Of a stretch of 64,000 bases of DNA, positions 3,907 to 36,351 are shown in pieces; position 1 is the first letter of the stretch, and every line of letters begins with the position of its first letter. The notes beneath the pieces were generated by a model. That model ran no database searches and was not told the origin of the DNA. It was given only the letters and a program-made list of their open reading frames with translations. The position numbers and the translations under genes were made by a program. Source of the stretch: an uncultured OCS116 cluster bacterium (GTDB taxonomy: Bacteria > Pseudomonadota > Alphaproteobacteria > Rhizobiales > TMED25); NCBI GenBank assembly GCA_902613795.1, contig CACMIP010000005.1:1-64000 (forward strand), read 5' to 3'.

Positions 3907-4305
3907 AAGCTTTCTTACTGCTTCCGCCTGCTTTTCTTTACTATTTAGACTGTCAGGCATAGTCTTATTTTCTGCAAAATATGGAATGATATGAAAGTGT
4001 GTGTGAAAAACAACTTGTCCTGCCTCAGACTCGCAATTATGTATAATTTTGGCACCAGCAGCCCCAAAAGCTAACTTTTGCATCGCAGCTATCTTCTTAA
4101 CAAGAATACACAGCCTTTCTAAATCTTCCTCATTTATATCATATATATTTCTAGATTTTGCTTTAGGGATTGCTAACATATGACCTGGTTTCTCGGGGTA
4201 GGCGTCCATTATTACCAAGTTATTTGAATCTTCAAATACCCGAATTGCAGGTATTTCACTCGCCAATATTTTTGAAAAAATGTTATCTTTATCATAATTA
4301 ATCAT
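3898..4305 (-). CDS. HIT family protein (histidine-triad nucleotide hydrolase)
   Basis: A small nucleotide-binding hydrolase of the HIT superfamily. The 135 residues include the early KILASEIPA segment common to HinT/HIT proteins, GHMLAIPK, and the triad HTHFHIIP at 101-108 (H101, H103, H105). The substrate cannot be told from the sequence; the family cleaves AMP-lysine or dinucleoside polyphosphates. A good GGAGG site lies inside the end of the upstream acyltransferase gene, whose stop overlaps this start by 8 bp. The two are therefore likely co-translated. Confidence 0.9.
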   Translation of the reverse strand: MINYDKDNIFSKILASEIPAIRVFEDSNNLVIMDAYPEKPGHMLAIPKAKSRNIYDINEEDLERLCILVKKIAAMQKLAFGAAGAKIIHNCESEAGQVVFHTHFHIIPYFAENKTMPDSLNSKEKQAEAVRKLLV

Positions 4306-5437
4306 TTAATCCTCCAGTTTTCTTGAATGGGTTAAAACTTGATAGGTAATCTATCTCTTTATTAATGTACTCACCCTCTTTTTCAATGAACTCTGATACT
4401 ATATTATGAATTTGCTGGTTTTGGAAAAAATGAGCAGAGTAGGTTAATGTAGGTTTATAGCCTCTGGATATCTTATGTGATCCGCCTGCGCCAGATTCTA
4501 TGGTTTTCATCTGGTTCTCAATCGCATACTCAATTGCTTGGTAATAGCATAACTCATAATGTAAAAATTTATAAAAGCCGCTTGCCCCCCAATATCTTCC
4601 ATACAGTGTATGATCATTATGGAGGTGCAGGCTACTAGCTATGGTATTCCCATTTTTCTTAGCTATAATCAGTAATAAATTATCAGGCATCTTATCCACT
4701 AGATTTTCAAAGAAAATCTTATTAAGGTAAGCATTACCCCATTTTCTATTACAAGTATCAAGGTAATGCTTGAAGAAGTTATCGAGTTGTTCACTTGTAA
4801 TATTTTGGCCTTCAACTCTATCAAAATTAATTCCGTCAGAATGTAGGCTCTTCCTCTCTTTGTTAATCATCTTCCTTTTTCTTGCATTTAAAGAATGTAG
4901 GAATTCATCAAAGTTTTTATAATTCTGGTTATCCCAAATGAACTGCTTACTATTTCTTTTTATAAAATTATTATCTTGTAAAATACCTATTTCCGGGTCT
5001 TCGATGAAATTGATATGCGCACTTGATATATCATACTTGTTCAGCAACGACTTTATAGCCTTTATTGATTTTTCTTTACCATTAGCGACATTTGATTTAG
5101 TAAGAAATTTGCATGATCTGATTGGGGTAAATGGAATAGCAACAAGTAATTTTGGAAAATACTTAACATTTACTTTATTGTAAAAGTCGACCCAGGCATG
5201 ATCAAAGATATATTCCCCAAAAGAATTATATTTCAAATATGCTGGTGTAAAACAGGTGATGTGGCCTTGTTCGTTTTTTTCTATTAGATGATTTGGGGCC
5301 CAGCCAAATGCATCACTTGCGCAACCTGAGCTTTCCAGTGACCATAGAAAGTCATATTTCATAAATGGGTTGTCATTATCCAAGCCTTGAAAATCATCTA
5401 CTGATATTTCACTCATCGACTTGCAGATTTCAATCAT
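4298..5437 (-). CDS. FemAB/GNAT-like acyltransferase (DUF482 / PF04339 type)
   Basis: A 379-residue protein of the peptidogalycan-biosynthesis/FemAB-related family. Recognisable segments are NPFMKYDFLWSLESSGCA near the N-terminus, FTPIRSCKFL, the NARKRKMINKERKSL basic helix, and GRYWGASGFYKFLHYELCYY plus ESGAGGSHKISRGYKP toward the C-terminus, all typical of this family. The acceptor substrate is unknown; a role in transferring an acyl or aminoacyl group is a fold-level inference. It sits directly upstream of the HIT gene with an 8-bp overlap, and ATG 5435-5437 begins after an AT-rich gap shared with divergent divK. Confidence 0.82.
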   Translation of the reverse strand: MIEICKSMSEISVDDFQGLDNDNPFMKYDFLWSLESSGCASDAFGWAPNHLIEKNEQGHITCFTPAYLKYNSFGEYIFDHAWVDFYNKVNVKYFPKLLVAIPFTPIRSCKFLTKSNVANGKEKSIKAIKSLLNKYDISSAHINFIEDPEIGILQDNNFIKRNSKQFIWDNQNYKNFDEFLHSLNARKRKMINKERKSLHSDGINFDRVEGQNITSEQLDNFFKHYLDTCNRKWGNAYLNKIFFENLVDKMPDNLLLIIAKKNGNTIASSLHLHNDHTLYGRYWGASGFYKFLHYELCYYQAIEYAIENQMKTIESGAGGSHKISRGYKPTLTYSAHFFQNQQIHNIVSEFIEKEGEYINKEIDYLSSFNPFKKTGGLND

Positions 5438-5548: not shown

Positions 5549-5923
5549 ATGGAAAAGAAAAATAGAAAGGTGCTAATTGTCGAAGATAACAAACTGAATA
5601 TGAAGCTATTCAGAGAAATTCTAATTGCAGAAAATTGCGAAGTTATCGAGTGTGCAGATCCTATGTTCGCAATGGATAGAATTTCAAATGAGTTACCAAA
5701 CCTCATTCTTATGGATATACAGTTGCCAAGAATTTCTGGCTATGATTTGATTACTTGGATAAAGGCAGATGCTAATATTTCACATATTCCAATAATTGCG
5801 ATCACGGCCTTTGCGATGGAGGATGATAAGGAAAAGATATTGGCGCTCGGGTGCGAGGAGTATATGTCAAAGCCAATCTCAATGGACCCATTTATAAGAA
5901 ATGTAAATAAATTTCTTGAGTAA
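5549..5923 (+). CDS. divK: Single-domain response regulator DivK
   Basis: A 124-residue stand-alone receiver domain. It has the acidic pair ED (12-13), phospho-acceptor D56 (LILMDIQLP), the conserved Thr of the ITAFAM segment, and the KPIS lysine. ITAFAM and SKPIS closely match DivK of Caulobacter and relatives, where it works with PleC/DivJ and DivL to gate CtrA and cell-cycle asymmetry. The pleD gene that often follows divK is absent; a candidate structured RNA follows instead. No output domain is present, as expected. Confidence 0.88.
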   Translation: MEKKNRKVLIVEDNKLNMKLFREILIAENCEVIECADPMFAMDRISNELPNLILMDIQLPRISGYDLITWIKADANISHIPIIAITAFAMEDDKEKILALGCEEYMSKPISMDPFIRNVNKFLE

Positions 5924-5940: not shown

Positions 5941-5968
5941 TTTTCAATAAATTAAATTACTATATAAT
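5941..5968 (+). promoter_or_regulatory. Possible promoter of the structured RNA after divK
   Basis: A TATAAT hexamer at 5963-5968 is preceded at 16 bp by TTTTCA (5941-5946), a partial match to a -35 element. A start about 6-8 bp downstream would fall just before the first hairpin at 5982. In such AT-rich DNA TATAAT is common by chance. The support is mainly its position between the divK stop and the RNA. Confidence 0.4.
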
Positions 5969-5974
5969 ATTATG

Positions 5975-6090
5975 TGAGTTTCCCTGCGGAGTTGCTCAGG
6001 TCCGCCGCATCTCCTGGGTCCGTAGGGTTTAGGTCGTATTGTTAGTCACTAAATTTGGCCTCCTCCAAATCTAGAGACTGACATATGACC
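5975..6090 (+). ncRNA. Candidate structured small RNA with two hairpins and a CCUCCU loop
   Basis: A locally G+C-rich island in an AT-rich gap. Hairpin 1: 5982-5990 pairs with 6019-6027 (9 bp, one GU), continued inside by 5995-6000 with 6013-6018 (6 bp), leaving a 12-nt loop. Hairpin 2: 6032-6039 with 6083-6090 (8 bp), 6041-6047 with 6076-6082 (7 bp) and 6050-6058 with 6065-6073 (9 positions, one mismatch). Its loop at 6059-6064 is exactly CCTCCT, complementary to Shine-Dalgarno sequences. No protein frame explains it. It lacks the SRP RNA GGAAGCAGCC-type signature and a 6S-type closing stem. Strand is inferred from a TATAAT just upstream; no clear terminator follows. Confidence 0.6.
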
Positions 6091-6163
6091 AGATGAATTA
6101 TGAAAATATCAAGTAAAATATGATGAACTTATTTTAACCTTATTGGTTACATTAAGATTAGTA

Positions 6164-6331
6164 TTATTTGATTTTATTTTCTTTAAAATCTACATGTTTT
6201 CTGGCAACAGGATCGTATTTTTTTACGACCAACTTATCTGTCATTGTACGATTATTCTTTTTTGTAACATAAAAATATCCAGTACCAGCTGTGCTTTCTA
6301 ATCGTATCTTTATATTTCCAGATTTTGCCAT
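6164..6331 (-). CDS. rpmG: 50S ribosomal protein L33
   Basis: A 55-residue basic protein of the large ribosomal subunit, read from ATG 6329-6331 to TAA 6164-6166. It begins [20 protein letters not shown] and continues [14 protein letters not shown] and [14 protein letters not shown], the full L33 pattern. It is the non-zinc (Cys-free) form, with no CxxC pairs. It lies 55 bp downstream of topA on the same strand. Confidence 0.95.
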
Positions 6332-34224: not shown

Positions 34225-36351
34225 ATGCTTAATGAAAATCTTCTAATTGACTCTATTACAAAATACAATCCTGCAACTAATAAAGATCTTATTAACAGGG
34301 CATTTGTAATCGCCGAGATAGCGCATCAGAATCAAAAGCGAAGATCTGGAGATCCATACATTTCTCACCCACTTGAGGTTGCGAAAATACTCACAGAATA
34401 CAGATTAGATGACTCCACTATAATTACAGCGCTCTTGCACGATACAATAGAAGATACAAAACTAACTCTGAAAGAAGTAAGAGGTGAGTTTGGTGAAGAA
34501 ATTGCCAGCCTCGTTGATGGTCTAACAAAAATAGGTAAATTGGATTTATTCACAAAAGAAGCCGAACAAGCCGAAAATTTTAGAAAATTAATTTTAGCAA
34601 TGTCGAATGATGTGAGGGTATTAATTGTCAAATTGGCAGATAGGCTTCATAACATGCGTACAATAAATTTCCTGCCTGAAGAAAAGCAGCAAATAATAGC
34701 AAAAGAAACAATTGAGGTTTACGCGCCATTATCGGGGAGGCTGGGAATTCATTCACTTAAAGAAGAGCTTGAAGAGCTGGCATTCGATGTTATTAATCCA
34801 AAGGCTCGAAAAATTATTCTGGATAAGCTATTGTCAATTAGCTCAGATTCAGGCGAACTTATTAACAGCATAAAAGCTGATTTATCTAAAGAAATAAAAA
34901 AAAATAAAATCAACTTCACGATTGAAGGTAGGGAAAAGAAACCTTTTTCCATATGGAGGAAAATGAACAGAAAGTCTATATCTCTTGAGCAACTCTCTGA
35001 TATATATGGCTTTCGAATTATTGTTAACTCTATTGATGATTGCTATCGTATCATTGGGATTGTTCATCAAAAATGGAATGCGATACCTGGAAGATTCAAA
35101 GATTATATATCAACACCAAAGATAAATGATTATCAGTCAATTCACACTACAATATTGGGACCCGATAATAATAGAATAGAGTTGCAAATTAGAACTTCTT
35201 CAATGAACGATCTTGCTGAAAGAGGTGTCGCTGCTCATCGTAACTATAAAGATAAATCAATAGAAAATGAGAGACAGAATTATCCTTGGCTTGACGACCT
35301 ACTGGAGATGCTCGAGCAAGGAGAAAGCTCTCAGGATTTTTTTGAAAGCACTAAATTGGAGCTATTTCAAGATCAGGTATTTTGTTTCACACCAAAGGGT
35401 CGAATAATAGCTTTACCCATTGGGGCAACGCCAATTGATTTCGCTTTTGAGGTTCATACAGATGTTGGAATGAAATGTATAGGCTGCAGGGTTAATGGTC
35501 TAAATTCGCCTTTATATGCTGAGCTTGATAATGGTGATGAAATAGAAATTATTACGGATGATAAGTCCTTACCTCCGATGGCATGGGAAAAAATAGCACT
35601 CACTGGAAAAGCTAAAATAGCTATCCGACGAATTAATAAGGAAAAAATAAAAAACCAATATTCAGAATTAGGAAAACAAATTCTTGATAAGTTATTAAAG
35701 TCTTCAACGGATGCTAAGAAAATACCAAATATGAAGGATTTTTGCAAAAAATTCGGTCTTAAGTCTTCAGCCGATCTATACAGTAAGATCGGTAGGGGTG
35801 AAATTACGCCGGAATCTATACGTAAAGCTTTTTTAAAAATAAAGATAATTAAAGCAAATGATGATCCAAATTCTGCGTTTGATCCGACCATTAATGCAGT
35901 CAGTATACCTGTCCGTGGTTTTGATAAAAATATACCATTTAAATTTGCAGATAATAGTCGGGTGGTACCTGGAGACAAGATTTTTGGTGTTATAGATGGC
36001 GAAGAGGGCATAACTATCTACTCTAAGCAATCTAAAAATCTTGTTAAATATTCAGAAAATGCAGCGTCTTTTATTGATCTTACATGGGATATTGAGAATA
36101 ATTTAACAGAGAGATATATAGCAAGAGTGATGATTGATTGCAAAAATGAAGTCGGCGCATTAGCAAAAATCACACGGGCTATCGGTCTATCTAATGCAAA
36201 TATTGAAAATTTGAAGCTGGTTTCAAGATCCAGAGATTTTTATAAACTTGATATTGATATTGGTGTGTTTCATCTATCACATCTGAATTTGGTTATAAGT
36301 TCAATTAGGAAGATTGCTGTGGTACATCGAGTTATCAGAATTATGGAATAA
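34225..36351 (+). CDS. Bifunctional (p)ppGpp synthetase/hydrolase Rsh (RelA/SpoT family)
   Basis: Makes and degrades the stringent-response alarmone. The 708 residues carry an HD hydrolase domain with intact ligands (SHPLEVA, ALLHDTIEDT, KLADRLHNMRT), a synthetase domain (GRFKDYISTPKINDYQSIHT, ELQIRT), a TGS domain (FCFTPKGRIIALPIGATPIDFAF) and a C-terminal ACT domain (ARVMIDCKNEVGALAKITRA). Both activities therefore look intact, as expected for the single Rsh of alphaproteobacteria. It heads the run to parC. Confidence 0.96.
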   Translation: MLNENLLIDSITKYNPATNKDLINRAFVIAEIAHQNQKRRSGDPYISHPLEVAKILTEYRLDDSTIITALLHDTIEDTKLTLKEVRGEFGEEIASLVDGLTKIGKLDLFTKEAEQAENFRKLILAMSNDVRVLIVKLADRLHNMRTINFLPEEKQQIIAKETIEVYAPLSGRLGIHSLKEELEELAFDVINPKARKIILDKLLSISSDSGELINSIKADLSKEIKKNKINFTIEGREKKPFSIWRKMNRKSISLEQLSDIYGFRIIVNSIDDCYRIIGIVHQKWNAIPGRFKDYISTPKINDYQSIHTTILGPDNNRIELQIRTSSMNDLAERGVAAHRNYKDKSIENERQNYPWLDDLLEMLEQGESSQDFFESTKLELFQDQVFCFTPKGRIIALPIGATPIDFAFEVHTDVGMKCIGCRVNGLNSPLYAELDNGDEIEIITDDKSLPPMAWEKIALTGKAKIAIRRINKEKIKNQYSELGKQILDKLLKSSTDAKKIPNMKDFCKKFGLKSSADLYSKIGRGEITPESIRKAFLKIKIIKANDDPNSAFDPTINAVSIPVRGFDKNIPFKFADNSRVVPGDKIFGVIDGEEGITIYSKQSKNLVKYSENAASFIDLTWDIENNLTERYIARVMIDCKNEVGALAKITRAIGLSNANIENLKLVSRSRDFYKLDIDIGVFHLSHLNLVISSIRKIAVVHRVIRIME

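Follow-up and report, generated by a model that had tools for sequence, protein, structure and literature searches.

EcpR1 of S. meliloti is encoded between the divK-pleD operon and rpmG and folds into two stem-loops, SL1 with the strongly conserved loop UCCGCCGCAUCU and SL2 with the loop UCCUCG (PMC4414408). Induction occurs in stationary phase and by way of the stringent response. The GC-rich loop of SL1 pairs with the 5′ regions of gcrA and dnaA, a pairing that compensatory mutations confirmed, and lowers their expression; the process does not require Hfq, and in the case of dnaA decay by RNase E is promoted (PMC4414408). The family has been reported in the Rhizobiaceae, Phyllobacteriaceae, Xanthobacteriaceae, Beijerinckiaceae and Hyphomicrobiaceae, that is, in the Rhizobiales only (PMC3927594, PMC4414408), and Methylosinus also carries a putative EcpR1 (PMC12403871). 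A literature search on small RNAs of the OCS116 group found no published report of EcpR1 there. The 64,000-nucleotide stretch of OCS116 DNA analyzed here ("the window") contains, between a divK-like gene and rpmG, a two-hairpin element on the + strand which we identify, with a probability of roughly 0.93, as ecpR1. It thus belongs to the Hyphomicrobiales/Rhizobiales trans-acting small RNAs of the EcpR1 family (Atu_C6, RF02500), and it would be a stress-linked RNA that acts through SL1 to repress cell-cycle mRNAs.

The divK-rpmG interval and its two hairpins

The features of the locus are as follows.

5549-5923, + strand: divK-like single-domain response regulator, a 124-aa receiver domain; conserved upstream neighbor
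5941-5968, + strand: candidate sigma-70 promoter TTTTCA-16-TATAAT, with 10/12 consensus matches
5979-6095, + strand: probable ecpR1, EcpR1/Atu_C6 trans-acting small RNA (Rfam RF02500, full model, 1-113)
5982-6027, + strand: SL1 (stem-loop 1) of the MFE fold; covarying helices 1 and 2 in 51 homologs
6001-6012, + strand: SL1 apical loop UCCGCCGCAUCU, identical in sequence to the validated S. meliloti loop (PMC4414408)
6032-6090, + strand: SL2 (stem-loop 2) of the MFE fold; helix 3 covaries, with compensatory changes in the genus and sister genus
6057-6065, + strand: conserved SL2 motif GGCCUCCUC, which contains the loop CCUCCU, complementary to AGGAGG
6164-6331, − strand: rpmG, ribosomal protein L33 (TIGR01023, 80.3 bits, above cut-off); conserved convergent downstream neighbor

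The geometry described in a first-pass annotation of this DNA holds in full: the gene coordinates give the 240 bp gap between divK and rpmG, the two hairpins have exactly the 39 base pairs counted there, and the MFE fold has SL2 spanning 6032-6090 with a six-base CCUCCU loop. The SL1 stem is formed by 5982-5989 and 5994-6000 paired with 6013-6027 (15 pairs) and carries a 12-nt loop, and SL2 has 24 pairs, with its 6-nt loop at 6059-6064. The + strand of 5960-6110 folds with an MFE of −52.3 kcal/mol against a mean of −33.9 for dinucleotide shuffles (z −5.35), and 0 of 200 shuffles did as well.

The divK-like protein is roughly 50% identical to Caulobacter and Bartonella proteins fetched as relatives, and the nearest named relatives of its gene are in OCS116-cluster and uncultured "Rhodobiaceae" marine genomes. 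It reaches no NCBIfam equivalog cut-off, so its name rests on similarity and synteny. Upstream of divK, a 379-aa FemAB-like protein is encoded on the − strand (window positions 4301-5437); its NCBIfam match is weak, well below the cut-off.

Membership in the EcpR1 family

RF02500 (Atu_C6, described as EcpR1) matches over 113 of 113 model positions, with E 3.5e-6 over the whole window. Its 61.7 bits exceed the gathering score of 60 by only 1.7 bits. Against a model built from homologs that include this very sequence, the element scores 88 bits. In the cmscan search no other Rfam family reached its gathering score near 5979-6095; sub-threshold matches to MIR400, a snoRNA and others were put down to chance. 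The SL1 loop lies within the flanking stem CUCAGG/CCUGGG, as in EcpR1, and SL2 combines a variable stem with a UCCUC loop, in which the final G of UCCUCG is C here. The place downstream of divK and beside rpmG is likewise that of EcpR1, with pleD missing. Despite the near-cut-off score, membership is secure because the place, the two hairpins and the SL1 loop are the same and SL2 presents UCCUCC. The element had at first seemed undescribed, with an unrecognized fold, but Rfam and the literature describe fold, loop and genomic place alike, and the Rfam search proposed at that time returned an end-to-end match to a known regulatory RNA family.

The marginal Rfam score and the AT-rich, diverged SL2 stem could be taken to mean that this is a truly new RNA family, whose likeness to EcpR1 is confined to the SL1 motif. 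That is extremely unlikely given that all 113 model positions are matched, that the neighbors and the SL2 motif are shared, and that sister-genus sequences are intermediates at 72.6-73.5 bits; synteny and graded scores already contradict it.

Covariation and the two conserved loops

Covariation in the homologs, which the first-pass annotation had asked for, is strong across 51 distinct sequences and far above shuffled and slid controls. In an alignment fitted to the structure by a covariance model built here, and thus biased in the structure's favor, 96.8% of pair cells are standard pairs (84.6% when shuffled), both partners change at 18 of 22 pairs (8.7 when shuffled), and sliding the pair partners by 1-3 columns collapses pairing to 28-50%. 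The three helices also come out of a plain MAFFT alignment, where compensation is seen at 12 of 22 pairs. When only the genus and sister genus are compared, SL1 is nearly constant and SL2 has five pairs with double changes. The number of double-change pairs is reached by 40 of 500 shuffles; taken alone, the signal at this level is modest.

The loop UCCGCCGCAUCU is exact in 42 of the 51 distinct homologs and GGCCUCCUC in 43, although both figures are overstated, as the models used to collect the members favor both motifs. The conservation of the SL2 motif about equals that of the SL1 loop, both within the order and in two families beyond it. This is in contrast to the published description of the SL2 motif as less conserved and points to an overlooked conserved loop.

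Two readings of the SL2 loop go beyond a structural role. In the first, this would be an EcpR1 homolog whose main job in the clade has shifted to SL2, with broad anti-Shine-Dalgarno repression by the CCUCCU loop, as in the alpha-r14/NfeR1 small RNAs. The CCUCCU sequence is exact here and a tight stem closes the loop, neither GGCCUCCUC nor TGGCCTCCTCCA varies among the 11 sequences from the genus and sister genus while the stem around TGGCCTCCTCCA changes, GGCCUCCUC is kept in the family at large, and only 2 of 60 background gene starts match the score of this genome's gcrA with SL2. However, SL1 is at least as conserved and is experimentally validated, the predicted SL2-gcrA site falls within the coding sequence (+41 to +55), off the Shine-Dalgarno sequence, no other Rfam family reaches its gathering score, and alpha-r14 RNAs have three hairpins with anti-Shine-Dalgarno motifs in all loops (PMC7143759); we consider such a shift improbable. 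The second reading is that EcpR1 has two conserved targeting loops, GGCCUCCUC perhaps being an anti-Shine-Dalgarno seed, alone or with SL1, and the main one in AT-rich marine genomes, in which GC-rich targets for SL1 may be few. GspR of Sinorhizobium, in which two loop regions have separate targets, is a precedent for a role of SL2 (PMC5928217). We put this forward tentatively, as the less probable course.

For EcpR1 as identified here, the anti-Shine-Dalgarno loop is real but secondary, and a role for it is possible. The earlier suggestion of a translation-repressing regulatory RNA on the + strand gains from the family assignment, since the S. meliloti member represses gcrA and dnaA (PMC4414408), but its functional emphasis on CCUCCU was misplaced because targeting has been proven by experiment for the SL1 loop UCCGCCGCAUCU, not for that of SL2.

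Transcription and strand

A promoter of its own between divK and rpmG probably drives transcription of the RNA. On the + strand, the TATAAT box of the candidate promoter precedes the expected 5′ end by about 7 nt, which would put the transcript start near 5975 and the length at about 115 nt or more. This box is kept in most members of the genus, not in the sister genus, and promoter-like sites are common by chance in such an AT-rich stretch (five found, 3.2 expected). A terminator scan found no intrinsic terminator after SL2; its sole hit spans SL1 and SL2.

The first-pass annotation had left room for a functional transcript of the other strand, with the loop AGGAGG. The − strand does fold (z −2.64), but less well than the + strand (−39.4 kcal/mol), and 128 of the 1112 pair cells in the homologs are G-U, hence A-C mismatches on the − strand. 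The Rfam match and the promoter-like box are both on the + strand as well, and the orientation beside rpmG is experimentally supported in S. meliloti (PMC4414408) and M. sporium (PMC12403871). With G-U pairs, fold energy and TATAAT box all disfavoring it, transcription from the opposite strand as the functional form is scarcely credible.

Distribution and gene neighborhood

RF02500 is found in 11 of the 12 genus members examined (the window's genome included), in both sister-genus genomes and in 43 of 61 relatives overall; the sole genus member without a match has a genome only 73% complete. Among 385 genomes sampled across the class, with strict filters that make an undercount possible, eight matches above the gathering score fall in two families outside the GTDB order, families which may count as Rhizobiales in older taxonomies; in most of these, too, rpmG lies downstream on the opposite strand. 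At four Bartonella loci searched with the family model, the region up to about 3 kb from divK was free of EcpR1 matches, and the Bartonellaceae are not on the published family list either (PMC3927594).

In most homologous loci rpmG lies about 200-600 bases past the SL1 loop on the opposite strand (convergent), and about 1.4 kb upstream, on the strand of the small RNA, there is a receiver-domain match with 24-36% identity, which we read as PleD. The genus and sister genus have divK itself as the immediate upstream neighbor of ecpR1, and therefore the locus has lost pleD. A search of this genome (97% complete) turned up no GGDEF domain. The missing pleD and the lack of a GGDEF domain suggest that c-di-GMP synthesis was lost while ecpR1 was kept. 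The present member suggests that EcpR1 is old and retained even where pleD, and apparently c-di-GMP synthesis, has gone. A small RNA family that slows the cell cycle of rhizobia under stress is found here in a streamlined ocean relative; this extends a cell-cycle regulator of plant symbionts to a marine lineage with a 1.3 Mb genome and, by model matches, to two families outside the GTDB order.

Putative targets

The genome contains gcrA and dnaA, as well as OmpR-type regulators that include a CtrA-like one (so labeled by eye from its N-terminus). Some 29 kb from ecpR1, a 709-aa open frame contains a RelA/SpoT domain (PF04607, E 1.4e-41; window positions 34927-35256, + strand), and this protein is likely the genome's ppGpp synthetase/hydrolase. 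By homology with S. meliloti, SL1 would pair with the 5′ regions of gcrA and dnaA and lower their expression. SL2 would probably serve mainly to stabilize the 3′ part, and ribosome-binding regions may find a second place to pair in its conserved GGCCUCCUC loop.

A ranking by duplex and accessibility (a simple ViennaRNA scheme with ORF-derived starts, weak in both directions) gave no convincing target among gcrA, dnaA and three OmpR-type regulators. For the predicted SL1 site at the start of gcrA (−11 to +11, GAGGUGAUGC...), an equally good score is reached by 7 of the 60 other gene starts in the window. The site is not conserved throughout the genus and differs from the one mapped in S. meliloti gcrA (−109 to −95), and dnaA is unremarkable with SL1, in the bulk of the scores. 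The predicted gcrA and dnaA pairings are thus not beyond background, and the target mechanism is transferred by homology. A whole-genome scan for the SL1 complement AGATGCGGCGGA with up to two mismatches (53 sites, 33 in the reversed control) was uninformative; its only perfect site is the small RNA gene itself.

Comparison with known small RNAs

GspR (SmelC775), a cell-cycle small RNA of Sinorhizobium, likewise has a cell-cycle target (PMC5928217), but it belongs to a different family and is reported only in that genus. The alpha-r14 family (NfeR1/Smr14C2) also displays a CU-rich anti-Shine-Dalgarno loop; its members, however, have three hairpins with that motif in all loops (PMC7143759), whereas there are two here and the SL1 loop UCCGCCGCAUCU is GC-rich. 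An alpha-r14 or CcsR-type identity was rejected, as Rfam gave no match to either and an alpha-r14 RNA would have a different number of hairpins. The putative EcpR1 of Methylosinus sporium 5 resembles this element in lying beside rpmG, in having SL1 and SL2 and in having been found through Rfam, and differs from it in having RNA-seq support (PMC12403871).

The closest described system is EcpR1 of S. meliloti (also SmelC291, SmrC10 or Sra33; RF02500 Atu_C6). Relative to it, the SL2 stem here is AT-rich, the SL2 loop reads UCCUCC and not UCCUCG, pleD is absent from the locus, no U-tract follows directly after SL2, and the targets are putative. The two share the two-hairpin fold, an identical SL1 loop UCCGCCGCAUCU, a UCCUC loop in SL2, a place between divK(-pleD) and rpmG, and a covariance-model match over the full length.
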